Assembly (NCBI RefSeq): GCF_014839805.1
Contig: NC_051119.1
Coordinates: 4,829,245-4,893,244 of the forward strand
DNA from: Manduca sexta
Lineage: Eukaryota > Arthropoda > Insecta > Lepidoptera > Sphingidae
Length of the DNA: 64,000 bases
Direction of reading: 5' to 3'
Shown piece after piece: positions 24,201-59,569 of this stretch. Both the position numbers and the translations under genes were made by a program. The notes under the pieces are model-generated. The model was not told the origin of the DNA. It saw nothing but the letters and a program-made list of their open reading frames with translations, and searched no databases. Positions within the stretch are counted from its first letter, which is position 1. Each line of letters starts with the position of its first letter.

Positions 24201-27200
24201 CCATAAACAGTAGAAACACCATCCAACACCTTGAAATACAAAATATCGTATGATATTCCACTGCGCTCGCCATCCTGAGACGTAAGATGTTAAATCTCAT
24301 TGTGTCCAGTAGTTACACTGGCTACAATGTCCTTCATACCGGAACACAACAATGACTACACACTATTGCTTGGCGGCAGAAATAGCCATTGCGGTGGTAC
24401 CTACCCAGGCGAACTCTCACATATGAGAGGCCTACCACCAGTAATTAAACTGTTTTGAGTAAAAATAAAAATGGTCATATGTACCCCTCTGTCCTCAGGT
24501 CTGGATAGGAGAAAAAGACTGGCCGACAACAGAGTTCTGATCACGCAGCATTTCACCGAAAGAACAGTCACTCCTGGGGGCGATGTAAGTATTCCAGTAT
24601 TTTTTGTGTTTACATTTTTTGCCTTTATTGATTAACAAAGGCTCACAATATTAAGAAAGTATTCCGTATTGGTGTTGTTACAGTACCTGGGGCAAGAACC
24701 GCTATTTGGTGCCTACCTACCCCCGCTCCCCGTCAATAGTAAATATAGCTACTAAAACTAAGACAAACAATCAATAAAACAATGTAAGAACGGTAGTGGT
24801 AAAAGAACGAGGAAAATAGGAGTGTTGGGGTGGGGGCAGGTTCCACCATTTTTACGTGCCTCCCTTCTTCCAGTAAGATACAGTTACTGTGATCATAGAT
24901 AAATTTGATACATAAAACTTTAGATTATGCCAGCAGAAGGAAACAAGCAAGGATGTTCAATATTAGTTCAGATTCAGATACCTTTCAGAACTCTGAACTG
25001 TTGTGTAAAAATAAAACGCTTCGACAATCACTAATTACGGAATATTGAAACAGCAAACTCTAGTTAAATATTAGTAGGTTATACAGGCCGTAAGAGGTTT
25101 TATGTAGTTTATCAGCCAGGCATCGTGTATCCATCATAGTATAGCGGTTTGAATGATATTAAAGCCAATATGATGAATGAATTAGTCCCTCCTTGCCGAA
25201 TTTCGGCACAGGGATGCACTCTCTGTTCCTTCACTCTCATAGTGAGACGGTAATTCGACATGACCGGAAAGAGATCAGGCGCAGGATCAACGGCTTTACG
25301 TGTTGTCTGAGGCATAGGGGTTTCACACCGCCATCTTCCAGACTCCGAGCTGCGATTGAGCAATTTTTAAGATAGAAAAACCCAGTCACAATTATCTTTG
25401 GCCCGATCCGGGATTCATACCCAAGACCTCAGCGCCATAGTCGTACTCGTACCGTGTACGCGTTACACTTAGATAGACAGTCAAAATTTAATGGCTATAT
25501 GTCAATATGATACTTTATTTATATGAAACTTTATATCACATATTAACGAACAAAATCATATTTGCTCTGAGCGCCTGATCGACTTCTTGCTCGTCCTTTC
25601 CGGCGTATTTGATATGCCTATTTCGGGAATTGTGTTTTGAAACTCCATAAATAGTATATGTTTATTCATCGTGGCTTCAATCGCGAATATCTTTAGGTAT
25701 ATATTTCTTTGAAACACCAATTAAGTTTCTGATCTTATCGTAAGCAAATATGCTTACAAATAGTCTACAATTTCGAACCTTATTTCTTAGTTAAGTTATA
25801 TAAATAAAATACTTTCTTCATCACGTAGGCGAACATATTTGCGCTTATGATAAGTCAAGGTACATGAGAATATTTAATTATTATTAGAATTAAGTCACTT
25901 ATAATTACAGACATTTTATATTGGACATATAAAAATTAAAAAGTACAAAATAAATAAAGGCCAACACGGCTTGACAGGAAAGAAGAAATAAAAGATAAAT
26001 TCATGGTCCCCCTTTAATTATCTTAAGGGATTATTTTCGTTTTTACTAAAAAGTACATAGAATCATGGTATATAATATTGTAGTAAAAATAATGAAATAC
26101 TATACGTGAAATGAAAAATACGGATAAATTCAGAGAATGTTTTTTTATCATTGAGCACTTGTTTTACATGAGTTGACATAAGACATTTATGTTTTTAATT
26201 TTTAAATTATATTCGAACAAGAGGTTCTACAACATATCCTCCCTTAATAAATTAAAAACATAAAATAACAACATAGTAAAATACAGTTTCTTATAAAACT
26301 AATATATAACTATATATTAACTCATACCCATGCCTTTCATGCATTTTACATGCTTTATTGGACCCAATGGCTTTGTCAACAAATCTGCAGGTAGCTCATC
26401 TGTAGGCATATACATTAATTCTACAACCTTGTCATTAACTTTTTCCTAACAAAATGAAACTTTACATCAATGTGCTTAGTCCTATTGTGATGGACTGGAT
26501 TCAATGCAAGTTTTTGCGCACTTTGACTATCAGAGAAAATAACAACATTTGGTGATCTACCAGTTACTTCAGTGACAAAACGTTTTTATAAAAACAAGCT
26601 TCTTTAGTGGCTGAAGTTAAAGCCATGTATTCGGCTTCTGCCGAAGATAAAGCAATAGTAGGCTGCTTCCGTGATTCCCAAGATATTGGACCACATGCGA
26701 ACTCGAAATAAAATCCAGTGTATGAACGTCGATCAACTGAACAATTTGCCCAATCTGCATCTGCATAAGCTTGTAGTTTAAAATCTTCCACTTTCCTATA
26801 AGTTATACCAACATCTTTAGTGGCACTTAAATAGCGAAGACACCGCTTAGCAGCACGCCAGTGACTCTGATCGTTGTTTGTATTAAATTGGCTCAAATAG
26901 CTTACTGTATAAGCTATATCTGGTCTCGTATTAACAGCCAAAAACATGAGAGATCCAATTAGAGCTTGATATGAATCATTAGACTCACCTGTACCAGGTT
27001 CTAATTTCTTTAATGCAAGTGGTGTTGAAATACCTTTGCAATCTTGCATATCATATTTCTTCAACAACTTTTCTATATATGTTCTTTGATATAATTTTAT
27101 AGAATTTTCTTGCGAACATATATTTATTCCCGTAAAGAAACTAATTATACCTAAATCTTTTGTTGTAAAATATTTTCCAAAATCACATTTAAACTTCTCA

Positions 27201-30200
27201 AACGTCACATTGTCTTTATAAATAACAACAATGTCATCTACATAAACTGCCAGTATTAAACAGTTTTTATTCGAAATCTTTTTGGTAAAAACACAAGGTT
27301 CAGAAGGAGTTTGAATAAATCCAATAGCTAACAAAGTTTGTTTTAACTTTGTATTCCAGGCTCTTGGTGCCTGTTTCAGACCATACAAAGATTTTCTTAA
27401 TAAACAGACTTTATTCTCATCACCTTCACGAACAAAACCTTCAGGTTGTGTCATATATACTTCCTCTTCCAAGTCACCATTTAAGAAAGCTATGTCGACA
27501 TCCATATGCCGAACTTTGTACCCTTCCTGCACTGCTAAAGCTAGTAGGGTTCGCAGTGATGAGTTGCGTATAACCGGTGAAAAGGTTTCATGATAATCTA
27601 CACCTTCTATTTGTGTGAATCCCTTGGCAACTAATCTAGCCTTGTACTTCACTACGTTACCATCAGCATCTCGTTTTAGCTTATAAACCCATTTACATGG
27701 AATGCAGGATTTATGACTTGGTTTATTTACCAAAATCCAAGTTTCCTTTTTTAATAAGGAATTATATTCTTCCTTCATTGAAGAGATCCAATTATCTTTA
27801 TCGTCTCTAGATATTGCATCATGAAACGTTTTCGGATCATCATTCAGAATATCATCGACAAGAGCACTATATGAAAAATAATCTGGAGGCTTACGTTCTC
27901 GTTGAGGATATCTTGACTCAGACCCACCATAAGGTTCATCATTAGTACCACTTGATGGCAATGAAGATGAATGATCTAAATCACCTGAGTTGTCATCAAT
28001 ATCATCAACAGCATCCACAAAGTCATTTTGCTCTTCCGGCAACAAAGATGGATTTACATCAGATGATGAAATCTGCGATAACAAATTAATAACATTGGGA
28101 TTAAAACTAAGGTTTAAATTATTTTCAGGCATCTCTTTCAGTCCTGTAAAATTATTTTCGAAAAATGTAACATCCCTTGACTTAATTAAACTTCGTGGCG
28201 TTTCCACGTTACGAAAATAATAACTTCTTGGATCATCTGAATATCCAACAAAGATGTGTTCCGTTGCTTTCATGTCTAACTTAGTTCTATGACATGATGG
28301 TACATGAACTAAACATCTACATCCAAAAACCTTTAAATGAGACAGGTCAGGTTTGCTCCCATACCACATTTCGAATGGTGTTTTACCTTCAATTGCGCGA
28401 TGAGGAGACCGGTTTTTTAAATAAACACTAGTTTCTACTGCATCCTGCCAATATGCCTTAGAAAGCGAACCATGTGACAGCAAAGCGCGAGCCTTTTCTA
28501 TAATACTGCGATTACAACGTTCACTAACACCATTTTGTTGAGGGCTATATGGAACCGTTGTTTGGTGTTGGATTCCTTGAGAATCTAAGTAGGCCGCCAT
28601 CTCTTTATTGACATACTCAGTACCATTATCCGATCTCAGTATTTTAATTTTCGCACCAGTCTGTCTCTCAACAAGTGATTGAAATGTAAGAAACTTTGAC
28701 ATGACTTCTGTCTTAGAATTCATACAATAAACAAATATAAAACGCGTTAATCATCTACAAAAATAATAAAATATTTATTGCCTTTGAATGAAGTAGTTGA
28801 CATCGGTCCACAAACATCTGTGTGAACTAATTCCAGTGCTGATGTAGCTCTCTTATACTTCAGCCTCTTGAAGGGCTTCCTAGCTTGCTTACCTTCAATA
28901 CAAGGTATACATGGTTCTTTGTCAACTTCTACGTACTTCACACCAACAGCAAGACCCTTTCTGAGTAGGTCCATACCAATACGGCAGAGATGTCCAAGAC
29001 GCTTATGCCAAAGCTGAAACTTTGAAAGCTCTGAATTAACAATGTACGCTATATTTTGTGGTAAACGAACAGAACAATCTAAATGAATCAGTCCACCACT
29101 ATAAGAACCATGAAAAGCAGCATTATTTAAATAAGATACATCATCAGTTTTATAAAAATTACAACCATTTTTATCAAAAATTACTAAAAAACCTTTTTCA
29201 ACAACCTGCTTTACCGATAGCAAATTGCAGTTTAGGCGTGGAACATGTACGACGTCAGCTATTCTGCAGACTCCATTATTCGTATCAATAGATACATCAC
29301 CAACGCCTATAGCTGCCAACTTCTCTCCATTTGCCACAGTAATTGTACCTTCATCTATAGGACGATAGTTGATAAACCAATCTGCACGGGGAGTCATATG
29401 AACTGTTGCACCTGAATCCACAATCCATCTGTTAAAGTCTTTACTTTCTAGTGCAGATAAAGACATTTCAGTGATAACTTGCTTCGAATTCGTTACCCGT
29501 TCTTCCTCATTATTCACAACAAGACCCGTTTCACATTTTGCTTCCTTTTTATTATAAACAAAACTTGGTTTATCCTTTTAAGAGGACAGTTGGGAGACTT
29601 ATGCCCTGGTTTTCTGCATTTATAGCATATTATACCCTTCTTATGCAATGAGCGCAGTGCTGGTACATCACGTTCAGTTTCTCTACTCATTTCGCTCAAT
29701 AGTTTAGTTTTCACCATTTCGCTAGTGACTTCTATATTACTGTGCTCTAGAGCCATTATCAGGGGCTCATATCGTGATGTAAGACCACCTAGAATGATTG
29801 CAGCAAGCGAACTATCTTCAATTTTCTTACCGATATCAGCTAGATCCTGCGCGGTCGTTGTTATAGCTATTATATAGGATTCTAAATCTGCAAAATCTGA
29901 TAAAGTATACCTATATAACTTCCGCTCTAGTGCTAACTTTCGGCCTAAGCTTTTATCTTCAAACGCTGTTTGCAAAGCATCCCACGCTATTTTCGCCGTT
30001 GTAGCTGTTCTGACATGCGTGATAGCACCACCGTCAACCGTTAGGCATATTTTTGAAAGAGCCTTTTGGTCATTACGGAAACGTACCTCAGGAGGCGTTT
30101 TGTCATCGTCAGCATAGCCACTTACAGTACTCCACAACTCTTCATGGATCAACAACATTCTCATTTTAAATTTCCAAATTGCATATCCTTCACGATTTTT

Positions 30201-33200
30201 TAACATAGTAATTCCATTCAATATTCCTACAGGTCCTGCCATTATTATCTTCTTCTAAATAAGATAACTTCGTGCAGATAACGATTTGTAGTAAAAATAA
30301 TGAAATACTATACGTGAAATGAAAAATACGGATAAATTCAGAGAATGTTTTTTTATCATTGAGCACTTGTTTTACATGAGTTGACATAAGACATTTATGT
30401 TTTTAATTTTTAAATTATATTCGAACAAAAGGTTCTACAACAAATATAACTCAATTTGTGCAAAAAAATAACATAAAGCCTTCTTATAATGAACCATAAA
30501 ATATCCTGCTACCAGCACTATTACTTCTTTATCAAACCTTTTCTTTTCAGATAAGCATGCAGTGTGCGGCGACAGCTGATAAGCCACCGCAATTTGTGTG
30601 GGAGAGAGACGGCATCATCGTGTCCAGTAATACGGATCCAAGGTATTTTTTTTATAAGAGCACGATTTCATCCCACTGCACCTGATGGTAAGTGGAGTGG
30701 GATCCAATAGAATGTCGACTGATGAGAGATGATTACCCCTTGACAGTCGACACAATTATGCCGGCCTATTGGAACCGGATATACTCAGGTTGATCCCGGA
30801 ATTGGATACAAGTGGGCCACTATTGGTTTTAACACCTTGTGTACGGCAGTCGCTATGCGGGCGGATATAAAATATATCCTACCACCAACGAAATTACATT
30901 ATAGTATGAGAAACGAGCAAGTTGCTTGCCTGATTATAAACATCACTACCGCCCAGAGGAACACCACCTTTTTTTTTTTTTTTTTTGGTTTCGCGAAGAA
31001 AGTCCCTTATTACTACCGCCCAGCCTTCGTGGGGGGTGACTGAGCGGTTATGCTGGGGTAGCCGTGCCTTACGGGCCGGCGTTCAGCCGCCCGGATTTGA
31101 TGACGACCTTCGGGCGACCGCCGGGCCGAGTCCCTAACCCTATATACAACTTAACCTATGCACGGCCTACCAGCTAATACTCCGCGGTGGCCCTCTTCGG
31201 CGCATTAGGGACGGCTGCGGGCTTCCTCTGACGTTGAAGTGTCTAGTCTGCGACCGCAGCCGCCCCTGCGCGGTGCCGCCTTGCGGCCCGTCTCCTATGG
31301 GTGGGGGGCTCAGAAGCCCCCGCGCACCGAAGGACGCCCTCGGCGTCTACGGCAGCATGAGGCCAACTACACACTGCCGTCCATCCCGGGGGTCACCACA
31401 ATGTGCTAAGCGTGCACAACCTTCACCAGCGGCCGACAGCCCCCTGCTGCCCGCCGGCGACCCCCCGATGGCCCCTATTAGTCGCCTTTTACGACAGGCA
31501 GGGGATACCGTGGTGGAATTCTCCAAACGCCCCCAGTCCACAGGGTGGAGAGGAACACTACCTACAGTTTTATAAGTGATTTTATCTCTGATTTGATTAC
31601 AAGTCTTATTACGTTCTAATAAGAATGATATTATATTCATTTTACAGGTATGCTATAGGCCAAATCATGACAACAGACAACTCAGTGGTAGCGCAACTGA
31701 ACATCACCAGGGTGAGGGTCGAAGACGGAGGACTCTACTCCTGTACGGCCAAGGAAGGCGAGCATTCAGCCAGCCACGAGAACAGACTTGATGTTTATGG
31801 TAAGCAAAGATATTCAACAGTACAGTAATACGGTATATTTTTATGGGAAGTAATGTCTATTTTTTAATACTGGCATGATAAAATGAACCTACTGTACCTG
31901 ATGGTGAATGAAATAGTGTCCAGAAAGATGACTACTTCATAGGACAAAGTCATACCTGATTTAAAACCAAATATACACAGACCCTGGAACGCGACACTTA
32001 CATGGGTCACTGTAGCAAATTTTACGCCTTATGTGCAGTGGTCACCATTAAAGCGGATAATATATCCTACCACTAGAAAATACCATCGCTTAATTGCTAA
32101 CACAATCCGCTTTACTAAAAGAATATACATTTGTTGTTAGCTGATAGATTGTTTAGGGTTATAGCTGTGTTTACAGTTACCAGATATGTGTAACTTATTC
32201 ATCATTGTTTTGATAATGCTGCATTATAGTAATTAATGCATACATATAATGAATGAACTGAGGAATTTCAACGATGTTTTATAATAATGGATGGATAATG
32301 GATTTTATGGGATGTAGTGTAAGGTTGAAGGTCCTTTGAAGATCGCCATAATAATTCAAGCAATTAAAAATTGAACACAACGCATTCATGCTTCTTTTAT
32401 TATGAGGATAGACGAAGGTTAAAATTATACATCTACATATCACCAAGCCTCATCTTCTGTTCATCTAGGTTCACCATATATCCGATCTCTGTCACCAATT
32501 AATAAAAATTGAATACAGTGCATTCATATTTCTTTCCTAAAGGGGATAGTTGAATGTAAACATCATGCGTCTTCATATCACCAAACTTCATCTTCTGTTC
32601 TTACAGGTCCGCCATACATCCGATCTCTACCACCAATTAAAGTACAGAGTGGAGAATCTGTAAATTTAAGATGTCCATTCTACGGATATCCCATAAGGTA
32701 AGCGTTAAAAACAGCTTTAAAAATAGGGGTCATAACGATGGTCGCAGGAGGTCGCTGGATGCGGGCCGCTTCCATTAACTCATTCTAGAAATCTTTGGGG
32801 GAGGCCCACGTTTATTTTTATTTAATAAAATTAAGACGCAAAACAGATTACAATCAAAATTAAAGCTAATTAAAAAATATACAAAGATAAAAACTAGATT
32901 TTATTCCTAAACATTGCGCCCTTATACTAGTTAATTACTTAAAGTGCGGACTAAAATAAATTAAGACTATTCAGTACTGTGTATAGTTAAAAAAAATTGC
33001 AGTAGACATCCTACGGCTGATGATGATAATGAATCCATGCTCATGTACTTAAAATTCTTGCTAACTCATAAAACCACATCTTAAACAAAACGCTATATTT
33101 GAACATTAAGAACTAATTCCTGAAAACTCATTCATAAGTTGAAATGCTAAGATAAAATTCGCCTTCTACAAATTTCTTCCTAACCTAGGCTGTACATTAG

Positions 33201-36200
33201 AAAGATTTTTTGTAGTTCTTAATATGCGGGCGCAAATATAATAATGTAGACTTAAAATGCATTATTATTTACAGCAAAATCGACTGGGAATACCAAGGCA
33301 AACTTCTTACTACAAACAGCCTTTTCCAAACACGTTACAAAAGATCTAAACACAAAACCAGAAGGAACGCCCCGTTAGTCAACATCAATGGAGTGCTCAC
33401 CATCCCAGAAGTAACTAAAGAACAAAACGGGGCTATATACACTTGTATTGTGACCAGTCCTTCTGGTGAGATGGCAAGACGAGCCTTCGAAATTCAGGTG
33501 ATAGAAGCGCCGGTCCTTGATGATTTGCTACTAGGAACTAATCTTCAAGAAGGTCAGATCGTGAATATATATTGCAATGTCAGGACTGGAGACTTGCCGA
33601 TACATTTCGAGTGGTTGAAGGATGGGAAACGGATTCCGAGTAATTTGAAGGTAGGTTTTGGAGTATTCAAATATTTGAGTTTCAATGTATACATAACCTG
33701 TTGAAGAGTTAACGCAAACATAGTGTAAGAAGTTTGTGCCTATAAAAGTAGAACCAGAAGATTACTTGTTAGTAATATCATAAAAATAAATGGCCATAGA
33801 AGATGTGGTCATAGTGTGATTGACAAAAAATCGTCTTAATTTTTTTTAGAATGCATGAATGTTACTAAATTGTATTCTATTTTTATTTTTCAGGTTGTAG
33901 AACGAAATTCAGAGTTATTCAGCGCTTTGGTAATTAAGAAAGTTTCATTAGAACATTGTGGAACATATACGTGCGTGGCATCGAACCACGTGGCTAAAGT
34001 AAACCGTTCTACCGATCTCTATATCAAAGGTAAATGATTGTTCCAATGTCAGATTTCTTTTGATTCACAATTATACATTTTAATACATCGGCATAGCATT
34101 GGATTTTACTCTTCAATATTAGTCTGAAAGCTGGCCCCTTATTACATGTTACCTAACATGAGGTTGTCTTGCTCCTCTGCCTACCCCTAAAAAGTAAAAT
34201 TCATCATTATAACTCAATTTGGGATTTGGCTTCAAATACATTGGGAGAAATATAATTTTCAATAACGGAAGATTTTATTTTTTTTCAGTTGCACCTAAAT
34301 GGCTCGAAGAGCCTGCCAACTCCTCACTTCTCCTGGGCAGAAGAGGAGCGGTCTCCTGCAGCGCCAGTGGATACCCTCAGCCTCAAGTGCACTGGATGAA
34401 GAAAGATGGTAAAACATCGTCACATTATCACATTTTTAGTTATATTTCTTTTATCATGTTGCAGAAAAAAAACGTTATATAATTTGTTTAGAAGCAAAAT
34501 TCGTATCCGCTTGGACCTTAGGTACCCTATATTCCTTAAGAAATTAATTTACTCTCATTGAGATTAGAGACCTTTACTTATCATGAAAAGCTTAAAAGTT
34601 GAGATCTAATCTCTCATTGAGATTAGATCTCAACTTTTTGACACTTATCACTCCTAGCCGGCAAACGGCACAGGACAAGTCTTGGGCACAGATGAACAGT
34701 GGTGGATGAGATTGCGTATGTACAAAATGTGTTAAAGTGTATAGTAATTGGATTGCAAATGTAAGAAAACAGTCAACAAGTATAGATTGAGGAACTAATT
34801 TCGCGAAACATCGCCGTATTATATGTCAAATCGACTAATCACGATTGTGCTCACGACTCGTGCCTCTAACTGTACGATGCTATTTTGAACATGTAAGTCA
34901 AGTACTTCATACGATTTGCAGCGCTTCTAGGCACCTGGCAACCGGTGTTGGAATTGGCAGGTGGAGGCATTCTCAGTCTTCCTAACGGGACCCTTGTAAT
35001 CGAGGAGGTTTCCCTAACTGATGAAGGCCTCTACTCTTGCAATGTAGAGAATGGAGTCGGACAGCCACTGAGCAAAACTATTTGGATGAGTGTAAATAGT
35101 AAGTATTTTTGTTACGTCTTTGATACATATAATAAAACTGTGACGGACCGGATATCTGTATATTATAGATATTGAAGGAAAACTAATATGGTGGGCCTTT
35201 ATTATAGCAATAGAAGCCAAAACAACAGCTATTAGTATTGTTTATTTGGCATATAACAATATTCAATATGATCACTTATGATTAATGTCGGACGTCCAAA
35301 AGGTGGACAAACTCGGTGGTCGCAGAATGCGGACCACTTCTTAAAGATCGATGTGGAAATTTTTAGGGGAGGCCAGTTCAGAAGTGGACATTCTGCGGCT
35401 AATGATGATTATTATGATTCCAGAACCAGTACACTTCGAGTCTTCATCAGCTAACGTGACGTCACAATTAGGACACCCTGTACGTCTCGAATGCAAACCT
35501 CTCGGAGACGATCCCATCAGAGTCGCGTGGTCGCATAATGGGAATGTAGTGGATATGCAGAACCAACGGTAAGTGTAACAAAATCAGTACTGGAGCCATT
35601 GCTAGGATGCCTCTTTACAACCGTTGCCGTTAATAGAAAACAGGGTAATTAAAATTAAAGATAAAGATAAAGATATATTTATTCTGCAAATATGGGTAAA
35701 TAACAATGCCCAAACATGAGATTTCAGAGCAACCATATTTAACCAAAAGATGGTATGTAACATTACAATTTCTTCAAGAGTATAATATAAGAATTTTAAT
35801 TTTTATAAAAAATATCGTTGTCTAATCTTAAGTAAGTATTATATAAGAAAATTAGAAAAAATAATAATTAAAATTAAAACATATTCCACAGTTCAACAAC
35901 TAACATTACAAAAGAGAAGTATAAAAGTATCTTTGGGCTACTACATAATTATTATCAATTCTGTACTATTAAAAACTCCGTTAAACTATAATCTATTCTT
36001 CGCATTTTATTCCAGGTTTTTACAAGACTGCAGCTTTCATAGTCACGGGGGCACTGAGGTGTTGATCGTCTGAAAAGTCGAAATTATAATACCTACCTAC
36101 ATTTTTTTTTCATTTTACAGTTTGTACACATGGTATACGACGGACTAAATGCCGCTATTATACAAGTATTTTCTTAAGTGTAGAGGGATATTGTAACTTT

Positions 36201-39200
36201 GTCTTTTCTTACGAACAACACTGATCTCCGCCGTGGCAATGAAGGCTGCAAAGTCTTCGAAACGTTAGGAGAAAATTATAATAAAAAAACCGCGGTCAAA
36301 TCCGCAAAATAGTTTAATCACCGTTTTAATTGTTTTTAACGTTAAAGATAAACGTATTAAATAACATTAATTTTGATAAAAAAAATAAATATTTACATGT
36401 ATTACATCTGTATTTGACTCCACATTTTATACTTTAAATGTCCTCTCCTCAGCATCAAGTTCTCAGAAGCCAAGACATCCCTCGGCTTGACAAGTACCAT
36501 TAACATCCAATACTCGGAGACCAGAGACGCTGGTTACTACCAATGCCGAGCCAGCAACCCGTACGGAGCTGCTACCTTTAACGTCGAACTTACTATATTG
36601 GGTAAATGAGATATTTTATAATATAAAATAATATCAGCCCTGTATTATATACTGTCTCATTGTTGGGCATGGGCCTCCTCTATTACTGAGAGGGATTAGC
36701 CATTAGTCCACCACGCTGGCCTAGTGCAGGTTGGTAGACTTCACACACCCTCGAAAATTTCTAATAGAGAATTTCTCAGGTATGTAGGTTTCCTCACGAT
36801 GTTTTCCTTCACCGTTAAAGCAAGCGATAATTCAAAAAGAATACACACATCAGTCTTACTTATAAACTTGTTTTAGCGTTAAGAGATGATTAAAAATTGC
36901 TTAAATAGCTGTCAAAACCATCACCGGTTTCCTAGTTTAAACCTTATTAAGAGGCAATATGGCGGGTTTTGACTTATAGCTGATCGAGTAAATTTGTGTT
37001 TTAACTAAGCAGAGCTTTGGGAATTTTTATAAGTAAGACTGTACGTTCTTTGCACTTACACAAAAAAATTTTAGTTATAATAAATGCGAAAAAATTATGA
37101 TTGTTTGGATGTTTGTTAGAAATAGACACAGAAAACGCTTTATTACACATCCTCAATAATCATAATAAGGTTTGCTTTTATCCCGAAAAAGGTATAGAAA
37201 CTTTATACCAGCGTGGGTCTTTCACACATCAGTAACGAACAATAAAAAATACATGATTCCCATTACAGAACCACCAACTCCGCCATCAGACCTTCGTGTG
37301 GAATCTGTCCGGCCCAGGGCAGCTGTCGTCTCCTGGAGAGATACCCTGCGGGCCAACGCGAGACACTACTCTCTCCAGTACTCGACTGGCCACTACGCTC
37401 ATACGTGGGATCATGCTGTCACCATGAACGTTACGAGGTAAATACTCAATTGTCATTCTCACACGAGTAAAATAGCTTTTGCTCGTAGCTTCGCCCGCTT
37501 GAAGGAGATTTCCGGGATAAAATTGACCTATAACCTTTCCAAGGTCTTAAGCTATCTCCATACCAAATTTCATAAAAATCCCTTCAGTAGATTTTGAGAA
37601 AATCGATAACATACAAACAGACAGAAAAGAGGATTTTTTTTTATAATATGTACAGATTGGTGTTCAACTGGTGCATCCACTATTCGATGGGTGCATTCCA
37701 TTACTTAATATTATAGGAGGCGAACTTACCGCTAAAACCTCATAGTTAACATCTTGAGTATATTGAGTTATAAAACCTATAAGACGATAGATTTATACTG
37801 AACTAGTATTACTTTAAATTGTTTTCAAATCCGCTCAAAATTAACTTCGATTACATGTTTAGGTACTTGAATATATAAAAAAAAACGTTTGCATTAAGAA
37901 ATTCCGTCTTTTATAAAATCGGTTCAAGTGTTTTTTATATTTTCAGGAAAGACACAGACGTCCGTCAGTCAGTAGAACTCCAAAACCTTCGACCAGCAAC
38001 GGCGTACATAGCCAGAGTGGCGACAGGCAATCAGGTCGGAATCAGCCAGTTCACTGCACCGGTGCATTTCACTACACATGAAGAAGGTATATCTACAAAA
38101 ATACTAAACTAAGGCGTTACTCAGACGCTTTTAACTTGATACTGAGAATCATAAATAGTACAAAAATGACAGTTGTTGAAGTTGCCATAGTTATTGCTGC
38201 AGTTTAACCTGTACAATCTTACTTATAAAAATTATGCAAAACTATGCTTAGTTAAACACAAATTTACTCATTCAGCTGTAAGTCAAAACCGGCCATCTTG
38301 CCTCTTAATAAGGTTTAAACTAAGAAACCGGTGATATTTTTGACAGCTATTTAAGCATTTTTTAATCACCTCTGAACGCTAAAACAAGTTTATAAGAAAG
38401 ACTGATATTGGCTAAAGCTATTGAAGCTTTTGTGTTTTTCAGAAAAAAGTGACAGCGTCTATAATAGGTCTAAATAGATTCAAAACACCTCGAAGTTTTA
38501 TATTAGTTATTTAACTAAGGGCACATCCCTTGTATATTTTTGGACAACCATATAAGAGTAAATGTCATATGTTTTTTAGCCCCATCTTCACCCCCTACAA
38601 ACGTGCAAGCAGAACAGACAGAGAACCCAGGAGAGTTGCAGGTATCATGGATGTCGCCTCTCAAGGAAACTCATAACGGAGTCATCATAGGCTACCATGT
38701 TAAGGCCGTTGCACAGAATTCTGGAGCAGGTAAGATTTATTTAACAGTATAATCTTGTTTCACTATATTTTATAAGTCTCCACTACTTTAGAGTCACGAA
38801 TGGTGACCTTTTTTTGTACCCAATGGCTAGGCAAGCTATCCGCACAACCGATTTCAAGCGACATGACTACCCTATAAAAACTCATCACTTTGAGACATTA
38901 AGTTTTTAGTAAATAATGCCTAAAATAGATGGCTACATGTGGGAGTGATACACTCCTGCCTACCTTCTAAAAGAGAAACAGGCTAAACATGTATCTACGT
39001 ATTCGTTTGCAGCTATCTATGAAAATAGAAAATTAAGCGTGTATGTATTTATATATTTGTTTGCAGATGATTCCGATTCGAGGACGTTAAAGGTATCACA
39101 ATTGTCTGGAAAGCAAGAAACTTTGCTTAGCGGACTCTTGAAGAACACCAAGTAATTAACTTCTAACATTTTTAGTACAGACACGAATAAATTGTCGATT

Positions 39201-42200
39201 TGAAACACTAGTGTTTACGTTTGAAACTAAATTGTTATAATTAGCATCATAAAATTTTTAATGTTCATTATTCCGCTGATTGACATTACTACCATTTACA
39301 ATTGCCATTGCATTATAATCATCATCAACATCTATAACCTTAGTATCATTACCAATTGCCATTTGATTATAATCATCACCAACATCTGTTTTCAATGAAC
39401 GCCAGTTTTTAAATTCATTAAAATCTTCAGATATGTAATCAATTGCTGCTCGTGATTGTCACATTATCCCTTCCAGATATGCAGTATCAGTCTCAGCCTT
39501 TACCAGTGCAGGATCTGGACCATTCTCGCTGCCAGTATTCCAAGACACAAGAGAAGGCGGTATATTATTTTGATCAATATTCTTTAGAAAATAATACAAC
39601 TATGTTTCACTATACTAAAAAGACGATACCAGTATTTTGAAAGAGTGGACGTAAAGCTACTAAATTAGATGTACTGAGAAATTTCTTTAACCATATAGAC
39701 AATCTGGGAGAACTTTGTCCTTATCGAATATTACTTGGATGCTAGAATTACAATCATTTTGCACTTTCGAGGTAAAAGTAAACTCAATTTTCTGTTCATA
39801 AAAAGCGTTCAAACTAATGGCCTCTTTCAATATAGAAAATTAAAAATGATCATTATCTTCCAGCCCCTGAACAAGCCCCGTCATCAGTAGAATGTACTGC
39901 CACCTCATCAACTTCCCTCAGGGTTGGCTGGCAGCCTATAGCACTGCCTGGTCAGGGCAGTTCTCTTGTTGGATACTCCGTACTTTACGCTACGGAAGGT
40001 AAGAGATTTGTTTGACTAATACATACATAAGCATGGGTATTTATCTCGGAGAGTTATGCAAGTACCTGACCAGTGTACTCAAATTTTATCGAATCTATTA
40101 ATTCCATGCTGTGATATGGAATGAGCATATTCAACTGTTACATCTAAATGCATTTTTTCACGTCCTGTGTCTAATCGAAAGACTTTGTTACCTTATTAAC
40201 CTAATAATGAACCCATATTTGCAAAATAATTTGATTGAAACAAAACACCCAATTTATAGTTATTGCTTCTTCTACAATGGTATTCTTCTCTATTGTATTT
40301 CGTAAGTATCAAGAATGTAACCATGGATATCTCTAACAGACATGAAGTTCTTTATACTGTTGTAGTTCTTCCATATTTTTTTTCCCAGATGGCGCCTGGC
40401 ACAACCAAACAGCACTCCACACGGAACTCTATCTGCAGAACTTACAAAAGTACACAAATTTCACCATCAAAGTGGCGGGATTTTCCAATTTTGGCACTGG
40501 ACCATATTCATACCCAATTATCTGCGCTACACTTCAAGATGGTAAGTAATTAATGATCGTGATAGGATATGTTATATCCGCCCGGATTGCGACCACCGTA
40601 CACAAGGTGTTACCCACCATGGTGGCTTTCGTAAGTATGTCGCGTTCCGGGATTAGTCTGTGTATATCCGGTTCCGACAGGCCGGCATAATTATGTCGAC
40701 TGTCTCTCGTCAGTCGACATTGTATTGGAACCCACTCCACTTACCATCAGGTGCAGTGGAATCACTTTGCCTTACACGTATGGAAAAAAATATTTGATCA
40801 AAAAACAGTTTAGAAAATTAGCATCGAGATAACAACCACTATATCGCAGTTAAACATTAGGAAAAATATCATACATATGACCCTTGAATAGTAACTATAC
40901 TATCAGAATAACTAAACAATTGTTATAGAGTACTGCTCTTGACTCACCACCCTAGAATTGTAGATATGATTTAGCTCGCCATCGGCTACACTAATTTCAA
41001 CTTTATTAATATTGCAATAAAATTGTCTTCCAGTTCCTGGACCGCCTGCGGACATTAAAATGTTAGTTCTGTCGTCAACGTCACTTCTCGTCAGTTGGAA
41101 GAAGCCAGATCATCCGAACGGGGAGATATTATACTATACTGTATATGTGAAGCCAGCTGCTAGGTAATTAAATCGAATGATGTACATATAACCTCGAAGG
41201 GATAGGCAAGGATGCCATAAAATTTTAATGACCACTTTAAAATTGTAATCGAATCGTATATCACAATTAAATAAACGATTATATAACAGTTATTTTTATT
41301 AAGCATTGAATGTCTATTTAAAATTGTTAACGCAAAATCAAGCAGTGTTAGAGGTAAACGAATTTGAACCCAATCAAGCAATCGAAATGTACCAATCTCT
41401 TGTAGGCAAGCATGGTCCATCATCGAGGACATCATCATTTACCATCAGAGATCATCAAACGCAAGCAAATATGTTGTAAAAAAAACCATAATTCCAGTGG
41501 TGGAACAGCAAGACGCGTGCGTGCCGAAGGGACCCGGCGTAGTGCGGAAATCCGCGAGGTGACTGCGGGCCGCGCGTACGACGCGTGGGTGCGCGCCGCC
41601 ACCGCCGCCGGCGAGGGCGCGCCCTCACGCACGCTCACCAAGGCGCCTGATCATCGAGGTAGTGACCTTGCATCGACACGGGGACATTCGTTTACGGATT
41701 TCTGTTCTATCGAACTAGCCGGTATAAACCGTCCTACCGACTAAACCCCGCCATTCGACTCTTTCTAATATGGCCGCGTGGTACGCAAGTGCATGCAACC
41801 ACAACCTTCGCAATCGATGTAATGATCTGCCACAGACAAAATGTTTTTAAACGAAGACACTGAGTAATAATCAAGCGCGGTAGACCAAGCTTAGAACTTG
41901 TTATGTTTCTGTTAACTCGAAACACCTCCCTGCCTTTTATGGTAGCACCACACTTGGCGTATTTGAACGTATGATTTCGTTAACCAGTCAATCCAACATC
42001 AACTTTATAATTAATGAACACGAAGTCAATATTACTTTTTCTAAAAGACGCAAATATTTTGACAAATCGGTGTAATACCAGCATTAAAGAAACGATTCTT
42101 GGGAATGGGTCCAATCCAAGGCTGGCTCCATTTCTGAAGCTGATTTCGTTTACTGGCCTAGCTCATTTATGGAACGGGGTTCATATCTGGCACTATCTCT

Positions 42201-45200
42201 GCATATAGGGTGGACAACATTCCTAGGATAGTCTCTGAAATTTCCATTAAAACCGTCCCTGAGACTGACCTCATCCCCTAAGTCTGACCAAATATAATGA
42301 TTTTCTTTCAGTGGTAGCAGGAGTAGCGTCTTTAGGTGGAACGATATCAGTAGGCGTGGGTCGGTCGGTGCTGCTGGTGTGCCAGTGCGTGGGCGCGCCG
42401 CCGCCGCGCACCGTGTGGTACCACCAGCACAACATCATCACGCACCACCCGCGCTTCACCAGGAACCACGACGATAGTCTGCTGATTAATAGTGAGAATT
42501 TTAACAAAATAACACTTTCGCCTAATGAGTAATAGTGTTGGTAAAGCATACTGAATTTGATAGGAACCTGAATGTGGTCTCTGACTGGTATTAAAGTAAG
42601 TTTTATGTATATATACTGATCTGGTATATATTTCTAATTCCCAAGGTTTATGATAAAGTACGTCTAGAAGGTAATACTCTCTTCAAAAATTTTATTGTGA
42701 TTGTCCTTTAGTTTCACAAATAATTTGTGATCTTATTAGTTAGTTCCCTTTGTAGATTTTTCATTACAAAATTAGCAAATTAAACAATATTTATCCCAAC
42801 TTTCTGTATTATCGAAACTATGTATCGTAAAATTCAACCTATTTCAGACATAGATCAGTCCCTCAGCGGGAACTACACTTGCCTCGCCAAGAACCTCTAT
42901 GGTTCTGATTCAGTGGAATACAACGTGATAGTCCTCCCGCTGCCTGAGTCCCCAGTCCTCCGAGCCACTCCGTACAAGGACTCGATCCTGGTGGAGTGGG
43001 AACAGCCGTTCTATATCACCAACAGAAGCTCTAGCCAAAAGATAAGTTAGTATAATATTGGAAATAGAGAATCTTTCAAATACTTGCGAAATTACAATCT
43101 TTGCCTTTTTTCTCTTCACATCTTTTAAAAACAACTGTGGCAAAATTTAATTAGATGACTATTAATCTACGATAAATACCTACACGTACTTTTTTGAATA
43201 GTGAAATATACGGCATGTTAAGTCGTCCTTTCAAGTCATTCTCACATGCGACGTCATTATAATTGGAGTTATTAATTTAAAATTATACTTCAATTTACTT
43301 CAACTAGTGCATTAGAAGATCATAACATATCCGAAATACAAAAAAATATGACTACATGCAAGTATAAAACAAGACGACGAAATACCTCATAATATTTCTT
43401 TAAAGAACGATCAGCTCAACTTTCCAGGTTACAGCCTAACTTGGAAGGAAGCGAACGGTCCATGGCAAGAAGCCTGGCCGTCCAATAAGTTGCCCAACAT
43501 GTCGGGAGTCCAGAAACACACGCTAACCGGCTTGAAGTGCGGGACCAAGTACTCGTTGAGAATCACGGCTACCAATAAGGTTGGGACTTCCCAACCTGCT
43601 TACATGGACGTCAGTACCCTGGGAGGAGGTAAGAATATTGCTAGTCTAGTCTAACAATACTCTACAGGTCTTACCTACGTAGGAAACGACACAGAAACTT
43701 AGTTTGTACTTATGTTTTATGAACATCCAACAAACCTAATAAAGTGTAACCATATGATAGCTCCTATCTCTAAGGAATTACCATCCTAAAGCTGAGGAAA
43801 TTCAAAAGTTTAGTCAACGACTTCCGCTTTAATGTAGATAAAATACTATTACTTAATATCCCTCAAATAACAGTAACGTTATCAGGAATGGAAGCGACTG
43901 AGGATATAATAATAAGTGAGAGTTTTATTCAATACATTTTATTTTTTGCGCTCGTTATAATTTCTTACCGCCATTTTCATTAAATGATTCTAATCGATTT
44001 TTCGATCTATGTTGAAAATGGACCAATCAGCACAAAGCTTTTTTTAAATATTTACAAATGATTTATTTTGATTCATTTTCGAAATCAAAAGCAAAGCATT
44101 ATGTAACTAAAAAAGGTAGTTCAGGCTGGTAGGTAAGAGTAGAAAATATACACATATTATATTTTAATAAATAATCTCAAGAACCATACTAGCCTTTCAC
44201 TAGCACATTCATGAATTATTCATTAAATCTGTAATTCACTGCTTCCATACAGCTTCTAACAAGTTTGTCTGGAAGTCTTCGGGGATGGTCAAACAGTGTT
44301 CCTACGGGTGATAATGGAACTAAACTTTACAGTACCAATCCCACCATCAACGAACGAGTGGTTGTGGAGCAACTGCACCCACATCTACGTGCAGCTAGCG
44401 GGATGGGATGACGCTGGCTGCGAGCTGAGAGGATGGGATGTAGAGTACCGTCAGCTTGGAAGCCGAGTATGGACCCGGGCGCATAATACTATGGTCAGTT
44501 GGGTTTGCATTGTATTACCACAATTTTAAATGCTAATTATAATATCAGCCCTGTATTGCTGTCCGACTGCTGGGCACGGGCCTCCTCTCCTACTGAGAGA
44601 GGTTATTATAATGATTTTGCATATTCTAGTTTCATCAAAATCTGAAGATACACATGAGTAAAGTAAAAAAGATTTATAACCGACTTCAAAAAAGGAGGAG
44701 GTTCTCAATTCGACTGTAGGTTTTTGTTGTTTGTTACGCGATTACTCCGTCATTTGTGGGCCGATTTTCAAAATTCTTTTTTAGTTCGAAAGGAGATGCT
44801 TCTGAACTGATCCGACTCCAAAATTGGTAACCAGTATATTGGTAAGGTTAAATTATTTTTTGGTTTTTAATGGTTTTTGAACGCGGTTTTATTTTTTATA
44901 AGACGCTGAATGGTATTAATAAAAAAAGTCCTTCGAGAGAATAAATTTATTCATAGCATTTAAGAATTTTGTAAATATGATCTTTCTTAGAAGTAAACGC
45001 AGGTACCGCTGAGCAGATTTAGTAAAGCAATACAGATAGACCATGTCCTAGAATATAAGCTATAATTTGTCCAGGCTTAGCACACAGGCATTTCCTGAAA
45101 AGTCTTTCAACTGGTATTTCAACCAACATCTAATAAATCTATAGCGATGGTTGAAACGCCAATTGACTAAAGCGACATTTTTTGCAGCACTAAGTTTTAT

Positions 45201-48200
45201 ACATAATTAAAACTTGTACTATGTTCTATTTTTTTTAATTACTTAAAATTTTTCGAAAACATATGTCGCTTAAGTCAATTTCATACATATTAAAATCAGC
45301 ACTTTTTTCTTAGTTTTTTTAACTTAGTTACAAAAAATGTCGCTTAAGTCAAATATCCATTCAACCGACGATATAATCTGTTACAGGCTTACTCAGACAT
45401 ACCGTCGTGGAGCCTAGCGCCACTCTACCAACCCAAGAGTCCGTACCGACCAGGGTCGTTCGCGATAGGCGATCTGCGACCAGCCACGTGGTACCAGTTG
45501 CGGATGACAGCTTCCAACGAAGCTGGGAGTGTCACTACAGTATATAGCTATGCTACTAAGAATGAGGATGGAAGTAAGTAATGGGGTAGTTTCTTATGTT
45601 TAATTTAGTTTATTATTATTAAACAGAAAATAATATGAACAAGAAATTCTTCTGTGAAATCAGCATCAAAATTGGTTTAATAAAGCAGTTATGCATATTT
45701 GAAATATTGTTGTGAACAATAGTGGGCACGTGGTGGGGATAACGTGCTGTCCTTTTCTCACTCACGCAGCGTTATGGCAGGTGACGCTGGGTGACGTCAC
45801 ATTTCAATAGTACTCTAATTTGTTATTTTCCCTTTCCACCAAATTTCAAAGCTTTATAAGTTACTAGCTTCCGCCCGCAGCTTCGCCCGCGTGGATTTCG
45901 GGTTTCAAAAATGGAGAAGGTGCTCAATTTGTCGGGATGTTTTTTTAATTTATGGTGGTATGCAGGTGGTCCGATTGTCCGGTCAGGGTCTGATGATGGG
46001 ATCCTGGTGAAATCGAAGGAACTTTTAACCATTAAGGTTGCACACGAAATGACGGAAGCTTAAAAAATGGAGTAACTTCTCCCGTTTTCCCAACATTTTC
46101 CATCACTGCTATGCTCCTATTAATTGTAGCGTGATGAAAACTATACTATAACCAGCTCAGGAGTATGAAAAATAATTGTACCAAGTTAAATTAAAATCCG
46201 TCGAGTACTTTTTGTTTCTATAACGGTTATACAGACAGACAGACAAAAATTTAACTAATTGCATTTTTGGCATCAGTATCGATCCCTAATCACCCCCTGA
46301 TAGTTATTTTGGAAATATATTTCATGTACAGAATTGACCTCTCTACAGATTTATTATAAGTATAGATATGCAAAAGTAGCTCAAAAATTGTCCATAACGA
46401 AAACATGCATTTTAAAGTAAAACAAAAGAAATAATATCGTGAAGCCAACCAAATAACTAATGATATATTAAATTTTGTGACTGTTCAATTTAGTCGGGTC
46501 CGCGATATCACTTTTGTTGAGTTTCAGAACGCGACATTACATTATTATATTCTGTGCTCCAACGCACACTGCTTTGATGTTAGGAACACACCTACATTGC
46601 TTAAACAACAGTGAACTTTATACAATAGCAATAAAGCTCAAATTGACTCTACGTATTAGTTAGAAAACGTTTGTATGGGAAATAGAAAAATGCTGTTTTG
46701 AGGATTTTCCCGGCAATTATTCGAATTTTTCTCACCTTTTAAACCTTCCCTAGACCTCCACGAATAATTCAAGACCAAGATAAGATAAATCCGTTCAGCC
46801 GTTCTCGAGTTTTAGCGAGACTAACGAACAGCAATTCATTTTTATATATATAGACTAGCTGACCCGACAAACGTTGTCCTGTCTTAACTATGTATGCACG
46901 CGCGCATTCCGTCGATCGCTAACAGTTATTTTAAACCACAGACAGTTATGTAAAAGTAATATTATTGTCGTTAAGTTTTCTTAAATTTTCTAATTTTCCG
47001 CGCTATTTTTTCTTTCATAAGAACCTTCTCCTGACAATAAAAAATCACAACAAAAAAATAGTGAAATAGGTCCAGCCGTTTACACGTGATGGCGTGACCA
47101 AGGGAAATAGGGATTCAATTTGATGTATATAGACATTTATTAATGCATGGATTTTAAAAAATATTTTTCCGATAGATTTTAGATAAAAAGCAGTTGTGAT
47201 AAACGTATTTTTAAAACGTTGTCAACTACCATATTGTAGAGCTGATTTATAGCCACTTATATCTATAACATAAATTATATCAAGAGTTTTTTCCTCGCAA
47301 AAAAAAGCGTTTATAAAAATGCAACTTGGCTATGATTCCAGGTATCAACCATATAACTAAGTGCATATGATTGAGTTTCCAACGTTACTTAATATATTTT
47401 TGCTGCTATTTAATTCGTACTGATCGTTAGACCCACATTGCATATCATTTTCGATTAAGAAATACTACTTCATTTCAGGCGAAGTTGGTCCACCATCAGA
47501 TTTGTTTGACTTGAACATGCTGGTGATCATCTGCAGCTCTATTTTGCTGACGCTATGTTTGTTGAGCTGCGTGTACATACTCGTCAAAAGGCAAAGGTGC
47601 GGTTGTATATTTATATATCTATCTATACATATAAAACAAAGTCCCCTTTTCTGTCTACCTTTATGTTATCGATTTTCTCAAAATCTACTGAACGGATTTT
47701 TATGAAATTTGGTATGGAGATAGTTTAAGGCCCTGGAAAGCTTATAGGCTACTATCTATCCCGGGAAAATATATAGCGGGACTTTAATCCCGGAAAACTC
47801 CATCACGCGGGCGAAGCCGCGAGCAAAAGCTAGATGTTTGAAAATTACTAACACTGCTTGTAATGGAAATTTTATGTGATTACCTTCTTAATACATTGCG
47901 AGTTTAGAGCGAATATTTTTTAAAATCAAATGTACTTTCAGAGAGTTCTGAACCTTATGTGAGTAATAAAAAATCATGTAAATAAAAGGTGTATTGAACT
48001 TTCGTAACGAATACATCAACTAAATTAATATTATACGGCTTACTTTATATATTTGTGAGAATACTTTGATTCATAATGGAAATATTATAACTTATTGGGA
48101 TTTCCGTATACTATTTATATGGAAGTTATTAAATAATAGTATGTCACATGAGGTAAAAGCATGAATTAATTTAGCCAACGGCTTTGTCAAATACGTCATG

Positions 48201-51200
48201 CTGTTGACCATATTTATTGCATTGCAAAATCACCCCAATATAAATTGTAATACGATTGACTTTCATTTCTCTTAAGCTAAGTTTAGGTTAGCAAGTTCTC
48301 ATAGTCAGCTTCTCATGACTGTTGCACGGTAAAAATGGTTTGGGGAATACAAATTCAACCAATCTAAACCATGACTTAAAGGATGTAAATGTATTTTATA
48401 CGCGTCGTCGTTTTTAAAACGAAACGAAGTTGCAAGATTGTTCGCGCCCATTCTAGATATATACTTCGATAGAAAAAGCCCTGCGCTTACTGGGTCCTCG
48501 CGTGGTGCAGGTCTTTCGTTGAATTCGGCGACCGTTTTATGCTCCTACTAGCTCTACCCCCCCTCCTCCAATGGGAGTAAACACAATATAAACTGATTAT
48601 AATTTTCATACAATTATAGCCTCCAAAGATACGCTAGAGCACTTACCAAAAACCCTCAGCTTATGATTTACTATTAAAACCCTGTCATAATAAAAAAAAA
48701 TATTTAGCAGATTACTGCTTTGCTGAAGCTTTTCAACGAAAGTCATTATTTTATCCTATACATAGTTAAACTACTCTATTATAAATTTATTTAACTTACC
48801 ATTCCAGGGGAAACCTGACAGAGTACAGGGACTCCATAACCGTGGAGAACAAGTCAGAGAGCGGGAACGTGACAGCCAACACTTCGCACACTAACCTGGC
48901 CAATGTTAAGGAGAACTCTGTCAACCCTCAAAACAGGATATACAGCGCGCCGATACACATGATGAATAATAGTAAACATGGTAAGGAAATAGGCGCTGAT
49001 TGACTGGGAAAGTATCAGACGATCTACTTAAAAAAGGAAATCTGTAGTTTCGAACGACGTATCACGTTTTGTTACTACGAAGTGTTAGGGATCCGATGAC
49101 GGATTCGACGATGGATCCGATCCGTTCATCGCAATATTTCAGGCATGTAATTTGTAACAACTTATAGTTATACTATTTAAAACCGAGGATAAAGTTTAAT
49201 TAATAATAATAATAATATTGGCCCTGTATTATAATACTTGCCCACTGCTGAGCACGGGCCTCCTCTACTACTGAGGGGGAATAGGCCTTAGTCCACCACG
49301 CTGGCCTAGTGCGGATTGGTAGACTTCACACACCCTCAAAATTCCTATAGAGAACTTCTCAGATGTGCAGGTTTCCTCACGATGTTTTCCTGCACCGTTA
49401 AAGCGAACGATAAATTCACAAAGAATACACACATGATTTTTAGAAAAGTCAGTGGTGTGTGCTCTTGGGGATTTGACCTGCGGACATTCGTCTTGGCAGT
49501 CCATTCCACACCCAACTAGGCTATCGCCGCTATTTAAAGTTCAATTGATTTCTTAAAAAATAAATACGGGGAATGGATCCTACCACCTAGGTAAGCTACA
49601 GAATGGTGACGGATCCGAAGTAATTTGGTAGTAGAGGTAAATCCAAAGATCGTCGTTTCTTCGTTTCGAACCGACGTTCCGACGTTCGTGCTTCGAAAAA
49701 GACCCTTTGATATTGTTGTGTTTACATATCAGTTGTACTTGGAGTGATAACGGTGAGGTTCAAGCTTTCCAGATTGGAAGTATATACACCTGATTCTTTG
49801 AAATTAGCTGGTGGTAGCATATTTAGTCGCTTGAATAGCGCCCATTCTTTATTTTGCTTTGAATGACGAGACGAGCTTGCCGTTCGCCTGATAGTAAGCG
49901 ATACGTCCGTCCATAAACAGTAGAAACACCAACACCTAGAATTACAAAGTATTGTTTGGTATTCCACTACGCTCGCCATCCTGAGACATGAGCATGACCA
50001 CAACAGTGACTACACACTGCTGGCGGCAGAAATAGACATTACGGTAGTACCTACCCAGGCGGACTCTCACATATGAGAGACCTACCACCAGTAAAAATTA
50101 ATTGTGTCGTGTTACCTTTCGGAAAATTTCACCTTTCGCCACTACCAATTCGAATCTATAATAAATTTGTTTCAGAATTGTACGAGATCAGCCCGTATGC
50201 GCAGTTCGCTGTCGGCTTTAGAACATTCGGTCACGTGGAAAATCAGGACTTACCCAATCGACATAAGAGATATGACACTGGTTTGTTTCAAATTACATTA
50301 AACTCTTGGTAGCGCAGATAGCTAAGGTCGTTTTTTTTTTCTTTTTTTAAGGAGCTTGGTCGTTATTTCACGACTATGTCGCTCCGTACGTCCACTTTTA
50401 CCCGTGCCTACTTTTGATGATATCATTTTTTTTTTTTAATAAAGCCCTAGCATCTTCCGAGACAGGAACCGACCAAAAACTATGTATACTGCCCACATTG
50501 AGACTCAAAGTGTGAGGTCCAGCTAAAATCGATTTATTTATTTTATTTATTTATTTACTAGCTTCCGCTCGCAGCTTCGCCCGCGTGGATTTCGGACTTC
50601 AAAAATGGAGCCGGTCGCGAGCGTTCGAGAATGTTCGTTTTACGAAGCTACTCGCTACGTGATTTGCTAGCCTCTAGGTGCCAAACAAGCCGCCTGCCTG
50701 TGCGTTCGCGACCTTATATATATACAAAAATAATCCTTATAGCATGATTCAGTATTCACGCATGATGGCTTATTATTAGCGTATTTCATGTATAACTTTG
50801 GTGTTTCTATACCGATTTCTATGATTCTTTTTTATGGAATATTTAATAATGTTAACTTTTTTAATTAGGGATGACTGAGAGTGTTATAAACGTAAGAGTA
50901 GACAAATATAATGAGAAAGCTTTGAACTGCTAAGCTATCGGGAGTTACACGTGTTATTGTGAGTCAACCATAAAAGATAGACATATGCTGTCGTGGGATA
51001 TTTTTTACATAATTTTAAGGAGAACATTTCCGTCATACATGATTTCTGTGTAGCTTTAACCATTAAGGTTGCACACGCGACGGAAGCTTAAAAAATGGAA
51101 TAACTTCTCCCGTTTTCCCAACATTTCCCTTCACTGCTCTGCTCCTATTAATTGTAGCGTGATGAAAAGTATACTATAACCAGCACAGGAGTATGATAAA

Positions 51201-56797: not shown

Positions 56798-57186
56798 TCA
56801 GTTAGACGCACTGACTTCCTGGATCCAATCCAAATAGTCAATTACTTTTGTATAAATCCCAGGGGAGTCCTTGGTCCCGCAATGCGTGTTTCCGAAGCTG
56901 GTCACCCCCCATAGCTCGATCCTATAACGGACCCAAGCGAGGGGCCCCCCGGAGTCTCCATTGCAGGTATCCACCCCTTCCTCACCACCAGCACAGATGA
57001 CTCCGTCAGGAAGGTCGATGCTTGAATAAGCTGCCTTGCATTCTGCAATGCCCCAGTTGGGTAGGAGTAAGATCTTCTTGGTGTCACTGTAGTGGCCATT
57101 GAAGGGGATGACCCCCCATCCTGATGCTGTGAAGGTGGCTGTTGGATCCAGATCGCCGGACGGCAGGCATACCGGTCGAATGAAGT
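56798..57186 (-). CDS. Serine protease terminal exon (catalytic Ser)
   Basis: Read on the minus strand from acceptor CTTTACAG. Encodes DFIRPVCLPSGDL, TASGWG, VICAGGEEGVDTC, NGDSGGPLAW, ELWGVTSFGNTHCGTKDSPG and IYTKVIDYLDWIQEVSASN, then TGA at 56800-56798. It holds the active-site Ser, the Asp specificity residue and the C-terminal helix. The length is normal for the family. 129 codons including the stop, phase 1 start. Confidence 0.96.
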
Positions 57187-59357: not shown

Positions 59358-59375
59358 CTGTTGACGATATCACTA

Positions 59376-59563
59376 CATAGTATAAAACAAAGTCGCTTTC
59401 TCTGTCCATATGTGTGCTTAAATCTTTAAAACTACGCAACGGATTTTGATGCGGTTTTTTTAATAGATAGAGTGATTCAAGAGGAAGGTTTATATGTATA
59501 ATAACATCCATTAAATAGTGAAGAAATATTGCACCCGTGCGAAGCCGGGGCGGGTCGCTAGTT
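59376..59563 (-). repeat. Dispersed repeat (CCCGTGCGAAGCCGGGGCGG type)
   Basis: TATAAAACAAAGTCGCTTTC, AAAACTACGCAACGGATTTT and GCACCCGTGCGAAGCCGGGG. A family-5 relative. Confidence 0.8.
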
Positions 59564-59569
59564 ATCTAT

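Follow-up and report, generated by a model that had tools for sequence, protein, structure and literature searches.

The window, a 64-kb stretch of DNA, covers positions 4829245-4893244 of contig C5 in a 470-Mb genome, and its protein homologies are lepidopteran. By protein homology, the host gene is a lepidopteran Dscam-family gene that matches moth proteins named 'Dscam1-like' and 'Dscam2': the Choristoneura 'Dscam1-like' protein shows 76% identity with 100% of the query covered, and the Spodoptera litura 'Dscam2' protein 80% identity with 95% covered. The Dscam architecture consists of ten Ig and six FN3 domains, with one Ig domain placed between FN3-4 and FN3-5, and the family is known for its neuronal roles. 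Homology-matched exons of the gene span 24486 to 43008. The exon match at 42311-42508, which comes after FN3 exons, is Ig-like by eye and is followed by more frames; those beyond 43008 resemble further FN3 exons and a membrane segment, again by eye. The gene model used for the comparison of introns contains 24 introns, with the exons from 43415 onwards and that at 24486-24593 being approximate.

Several other elements surround or interrupt the gene. The 6-kb intron 24594-30550 contains what by eye is a Copia-like retrotransposon (26078-30445, minus strand), with 160-nt terminal direct repeats that are 99% identical and a coding frame in three pieces. Downstream of the gene, the minus strand at 56798-59565 carries frames which, viewed by eye, resemble parts of a trypsin-type serine protease. 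Across 12320-12983 and 45940-46603 there are two blocks, each of 300 nt, with 99-100% identity and 33.6 kb between them, and a third, partial copy lies near 50968. An Rfam search over 30000-50000 returned no matches at the gathering score.

The region of interest lies around the first FN3 domain (FN3-1), and its features are as follows.

36453-36601, plus strand: preceding exon, encoding the end of the last Ig domain before FN3-1 (borders, homology, Pfam I-set)
36602-37268, plus strand: upstream intron, 667 nt, carrying MITE copy 1 (from exon borders)
36612-36850, plus strand: another abundant repeat, ending exactly at the start of MITE copy 1 (matched at E 1e-3 by 12 further places in the window, of which several are short)
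36851-37041, plus strand: MITE copy 1, 191 nt, in the upstream intron of FN3-1 (16-nt terminal inverted repeats without mismatch; divergence from the family consensus 4.2%)
37269-37437, plus strand: FN3-1 exon A, 169 nt, starting after a phase-1 intron and ending in phase 2 (AG/GT borders, open frame, moth Dscam homology, Pfam fn3)
37947-38086, plus strand: FN3-1 exon B, 140 nt, starting in phase 2 and ending in phase 1 (AG/GT borders, open frame, moth Dscam homology, Pfam fn3)
38087-38579, plus strand: downstream intron, 493 nt, carrying MITE copy 2 (from exon borders)
38214-38404, minus strand: MITE copy 2, 191 nt, in the downstream intron of FN3-1, inverted relative to copy 1 (7.3% from the family consensus)
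38580-38729, plus strand: following exon, encoding the first half of FN3-2 (borders, homology)

A first-pass annotation of this DNA had proposed that exons A and B form a 309-nt block, running from phase 1 to phase 1, that encodes FN3-1. This description holds. The exon borders are AG/GT, the neighbouring borders at 36601 and 38580 fit as well, and the frame is open when the block is joined to both. A Pfam search with a 202-aa piece containing two fn3 stretches matched fn3 with an E value of 8.1e-18 for the whole piece; the best stretch comprises residues 54-147, and the block of exons A and B residues 50-152. Since the block begins and ends in phase 1, skipping both exons would preserve the reading frame. 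As evidence for a splice module, this in-frame property was rejected: in the part of the gene from 30551 to 40541 the frame is likewise kept by 7 of the 14 two-exon blocks, as it is by 6 of the 15 single exons. Genes built of Ig and FN3 domains usually have phase-1 borders. The flanking introns measure 667 and 493 nt, where the 24 introns of the model have a median of 501 nt, so that the long flanking introns which are a usual, though optional, mark of loci where reverse complementary introns drive circular RNA are not found here. It should also be noted that a crude consensus count gives the donor at 36601 a score of 6 of 9, which is the lowest value among the 13 correctly placed donors listed.

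The two MITE copies are 90.1% identical over 192 aligned columns. This confirms, together with their coordinates and orientation, the earlier reading of two 191-bp elements facing each other at about 90% identity, and the distances given there between element and exon, 227 nt from copy 1 to exon A and 127 nt from exon B to copy 2, follow from the coordinates. The complementary stretch as a whole joins 36849-37044 with 38211-38406 (197 columns, 90.4%), and the terminal inverted repeats of copy 2, read from the sequence, agree at 14 of 16 positions. The 64-kb window has no third long copy of the MITE, all remaining matches being at most 26 nt in length; the pairing of copies 1 and 2 therefore reflects real homology and not a chance match. 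The arms have G+C fractions of 0.33 and 0.31, compared with 0.36 for the window.

The element has the structure of a MITE, being short (191 nt), non-coding and bounded by 16-nt terminal inverted repeats, and it occurs in many dispersed copies with the same ends. A genome search with copy 1 gave 2344 unconfirmed first-look candidates in the 470 Mb; the 40 that were scored all match and lie on many contigs. Copy 1 itself is the first of these 40 and the other 39 lie elsewhere, while the 2304 unscored candidates are not confirmed copies, and the repeat counts are to be read as lower bounds. The ends are common to most of 29 aligned rows, with few rows truncated or altered. Measured against the majority consensus of these rows, copy 2 has the highest divergence of all (7.3%), and the 4.2% of copy 1 leans low because the consensus was built from the best matches to copy 1; both values are percentages from the consensus, with no rate applied and no conversion to years. 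The first-pass annotation had called the copies recent, a claim that these divergences do not support, as neither copy is young for the family.

The sequences flanking the copies hint at a 3-bp target duplication: of 28 copies, counted after omission of one of two rows that had the same flanks, 9 have identical 3-bp flanks, where 2.4 would be expected. Among the same 28 copies there is no comparable excess of flank identity at 2 bp or at 5 to 9 bp, and at 4 bp the flanks are identical in 2 copies against 0.7 expected. Copies 1 and 2 have no exact target duplication themselves (flanks CAT/TAC and TAT/TAC). Judging by the length of the duplication, we presume that the MITE could be of the CACTA or the PIF/Harbinger type. 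Viral contigs gave 0 matches to one exact 35-base pattern of the element. On contig C18, two copies in opposite orientation (L013 and L014), some 83 kb apart, have the same 25 nt on both sides, and to judge from these flanks they are probably part of a duplicated stretch. Intronic MITE families are described in the silkworm (PMC2997013) and Helicoverpa (PMC9033116), and the present family is like them in being short, A+T-rich, intronic and present in many copies with terminal inverted repeats; its terminal repeat, however, does not occur in the material compared, namely part of a family table from one of these sources and the main text of the other.

How the two copies came to lie on either side of FN3-1 can be approached through their flanks and their substitutions. 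The repeat at 36612-36850 stops at the left end of copy 1, and 4 of the 5 other copies of this repeat that were inspected continue with the same sequence beyond the junction point with the MITE. The right flank of copy 1 does not resume the repeat. A simple empty-site insertion of copy 1 into the repeat is hence not demonstrable, and either the insertion or a later change must have been less than simple. An inversion between the two MITEs is also unsupported: at E 1e-3 the window has no other match to the sequences on either side of copy 2, so the missing half of the repeat is not there.

Copies 1 and 2 depart from the consensus at mostly different sites, each having many private changes, and they share 2 derived states, where the mean in 325 other copy pairs is 0.47 and at least two states are shared in 20 of those pairs. 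Because the changes are mostly different and so few are shared, with 20 of 325 pairs sharing as many, we read the copies as probably independent insertions, though there is a small chance that they are more closely linked. That both instead arose in one event, through a local hop or an inverted duplication, would agree with one substitution which the two copies have in common and which is absent from all 26 other copies compared (0/26), and with the second shared state, also present in 8 of the 26, but the many private changes, flanks that do not match each other and the fact that sharing two states is not rare make such an origin highly improbable.

The frequency of such arrangements was estimated from further copies of the family. 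Among 20 further MITE copies taken with 4-kb flanks, an inverted neighbour occurs once (L048, gap 912 nt) and a direct, partial neighbour once (L041), and 7 further copies with 1.5-kb flanks have no neighbour; the 20 are among the best matches to copy 1 and not a random sample, with L033 and L034 being copies of one stretch. In the L048 pair, the MITE lies at 4001-4192 and 5100-5279 of that sequence, in close inverted orientation. A count of inverted pairs of any repeat, with arms of at least 80 nt and a gap of at most 3 kb, made anywhere without regard to exons, gave 11 pairs in 227.8 kb, of which L029-L048 contribute 163.8 kb and the window the rest. Four of these pairs lie in the window, and of the 5 pairs that score above 200 bits 2 do. 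Two L044 pairs among the 11 share an arm and the L048 pair is the same MITE again; furthermore, the sampled stretches were chosen around MITE copies, and the rate is therefore rough. On the assumption that every one of the 2344 candidates is a copy and that their places are random, the genome would be expected to contain about 8 inverted pairs at such close range. A close inverted arrangement is thus to be expected many times in the genome, and the existence of such a pair somewhere is not beyond chance.

At the RNA level, the two arms are predicted to pair strongly. The first-pass annotation had put forward a fold across the MITE pair as a check, and the result supports pairing of the arms: in the minimum-energy fold of 36602-38579, arm 2 is the partner of 175 of the 191 arm-1 bases. 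This fold has an energy of -602.0 kcal/mol, compared with a mean of -448.1 kcal/mol for 10 versions in which arm 2 had its bases shuffled. On average, a base of arm 1 has a probability of 0.91 of pairing with arm 2. The same stem appears when 36950-38380, with part of each arm, is folded separately. All of these folds are thermodynamic predictions, which take no account of the order in which transcription and splicing occur. In the comparison of introns, the reverse-complement match between the two flanking introns scores 263 bits and is the best of the 276 intron pairs in the gene model. The next-best pair, 30643-31647 with 40542-41032, scores 172 bits, and none of the rest reaches 60. The gene contains a second inverted repeat at 30670-30885 and 40559-40762 (220 columns, 77%), which encloses about 10 kb of exons, including the MITE pair.

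The conservation of FN3-1 was examined in homologue models. A piece of the protein from Ig9 to FN3-3 found 37 matches among the first 60 of 118 proteins, and 21 of these span both flanks of FN3-1; both FN3-1 exons are present in 19 of the 21. The other two are P0018, in which part of exon B is missing, and P0029, a Leptidea sinapis model, in which most of exon A is missing. The P0029 alignment can be read as passing from the end of Ig9 to the later half of FN3-2, without FN3-1 and half of FN3-2. The 16 matches without both flanks were left out of the count; several of these 16 (P0010, P0011, P0023, P0031 and P0041) also match little or nothing of exon A. The homologues are database models, some of them paralogues or from other arthropods; they show that FN3-1 is conserved, without speaking for or against any isoform.

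Taken together, these observations make it likely, in our judgement, that the locus holds a chance pair of insertions from an abundant MITE family in the short introns around FN3-1, which would be at most a weak substrate for circle formation, skipping and editing. Under this reading, two members of an abundant non-coding family would have inserted separately, in opposite orientation, into the short introns on either side of the exon pair. The pre-mRNA could then form an imperfect stem of about 190 bp in silico, with both exons in a loop of 1.17 kb. Both introns would mostly be removed in the ordinary way, and FN3-1 would therefore be retained in most of the mRNA. The stem would at most give rise to A-to-I editing of intron RNA and to low levels of a 309-nt circle or of a transcript lacking FN3-1. 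The whole arrangement could be explained without any selected function. In favour of the chance pair are the abundance of the family, the commonness of close inverted repeats in the stretches sampled, the mostly different changes of the two copies, the divergence of copy 2, the 7 of 14 blocks that are in frame and the 19 of 21 homologues with both exons. Against it stand the rank of the intron pair as the strongest of 276, the lack of a competing copy in the window, the strong fold and the closeness of the arms to the exons, and also the lowest-scoring donor at 36601, the low G+C of the arms and the one substitution that the two copies share and the 26 others compared lack. Together with the C. 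elegans precedent described below, these points make a real effect quite possible. From the published cases below, the intron lengths of 667 and 493 nt and the donor count, which leans towards an effect, we expect splicing to be mostly normal; the chance of a detectable circle or skip would be modest, and that of editing in the arms fair.

The first of the alternatives is that the MITE stem drives sizeable amounts of an exon-pair circle, of a receptor isoform without FN3-1, or of both. With the introns paired, the donor after exon B would come to lie beside the acceptor before exon A, yielding the circle, and the 36601 donor would likewise meet the 38580 acceptor, yielding the skip. The anatomy of the locus fits this candidate mechanism, in which complementary intronic repeats would promote back-splicing and skipping: the predicted pairing of the arms is strong and the intron pair is the best in the gene, the 36601 donor is the lowest in the crude count, and a skip from phase 1 to phase 1 would be in frame. 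There are also precedents. In C. elegans, when one complementary match was deleted, circles of six genes fell to very low or undetectable levels, and skipped transcripts became fewer in the three genes described (PMC8330042). For zip-2, matches of 13 nt support both back-splicing and skipping. Like zip-2 and the other genes described there, the present locus has complementary introns on both sides of a block that is open to circularising and skipping. However, the C. elegans products were measured and fell on deletion of one match, whereas the present case consists of sequence and folding alone, and the conserved 13-nt match of zip-2 contrasts with the transposon arms of about 190 nt found here (PMC8330042).

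A second precedent comes from fly neurons, where ELAV binds reverse complementary matches and favours circles, and where the matches around neuronal circles are reported to be low in G+C (PMC12404201). The present pair resembles those of the ELAV-dependent circles of Drosophila in being a repeat-derived, complementary intron pair of low G+C. It differs from them in that their introns are typically long, while those here are of 667 and 493 nt and contain no TTTKTTT motif (a rough count of a motif that we chose ourselves). A count of ELAV-like motifs in the two introns gave nothing notable. The fly paper also notes that a systematic role for these matches in flies is disputed by several studies (PMC12404201).

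Introns flanking circles tend to be long in bee and fly (PMC6347836, PMC12404201), which the short introns here do not match. In the honeybee, complementarity is generally better at circle introns, yet the scores largely overlap those of controls once length is considered, and the authors doubt that pairing has a direct effect on circles (PMC6347836). For two aminopeptidase genes of the moth Helicoverpa armigera, complementary stretches of 4-5 nt near the junctions are reported in 8 of 20 circles, from a scan that covered just 20 nt at each junction (PMC6722899). The mutually exclusive splicing of insect Dscam1, in which pairing introns select exons (PMC8042237), is similar in that exon choice in a Dscam-family gene is controlled by RNA secondary structure; the structures there serve variable exon clusters, in contrast to a transposon pair around a seemingly constant domain here. 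Among titles in the open-licence literature on Lepidoptera or Dscam circRNA, Dscam2 skipping, Bombyx MITE circles and repeat editing, no inverted MITE pair around Dscam exons was found.

Two further points weigh against a sizeable circle or skip. The upstream intron would be complete about 0.95 kb before transcription of the second arm begins, and both exons are found in nearly all of the homologue models that span the domain, though these are silent on the isoforms of this species. We consider sizeable stem-driven products unlikely.

A second alternative is that the stem serves mainly as an ADAR substrate: A-to-I changes would cluster in both introns, and splicing would be little affected. 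That ADARs edit the long intramolecular double-stranded RNA of inverted repeats is established, and the locus offers nearly 190 bp at about 90% pairing within one intron-exon-intron stretch. On the other hand, by title, no directly relevant paper on inverted-repeat editing was found in the open-licence literature, and as the main outcome of the stem this appears to us quite unlikely, somewhat more so than the previous alternative.

We return to the chance pair as the preferred reading. The earlier annotation correctly saw an ordinary arrangement of two transposon copies, and their predicted effect on RNA processing, while plausible, is probably minor. The boldest reading, that the MITE pair would act as a lineage-specific splice switch setting a regulated ratio between a neural 309-nt circle and a receptor lacking FN3-1, is in our view very unlikely. 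Were it to hold, a cell-recognition receptor would have gained both a new in-frame isoform and a circle from transposons in one step, a clean example from nature. As things stand, the pair is an example among many inverted repeats lying close together in a moth genome rich in repeats, and is mainly of use as a candidate for a search of sequencing reads.
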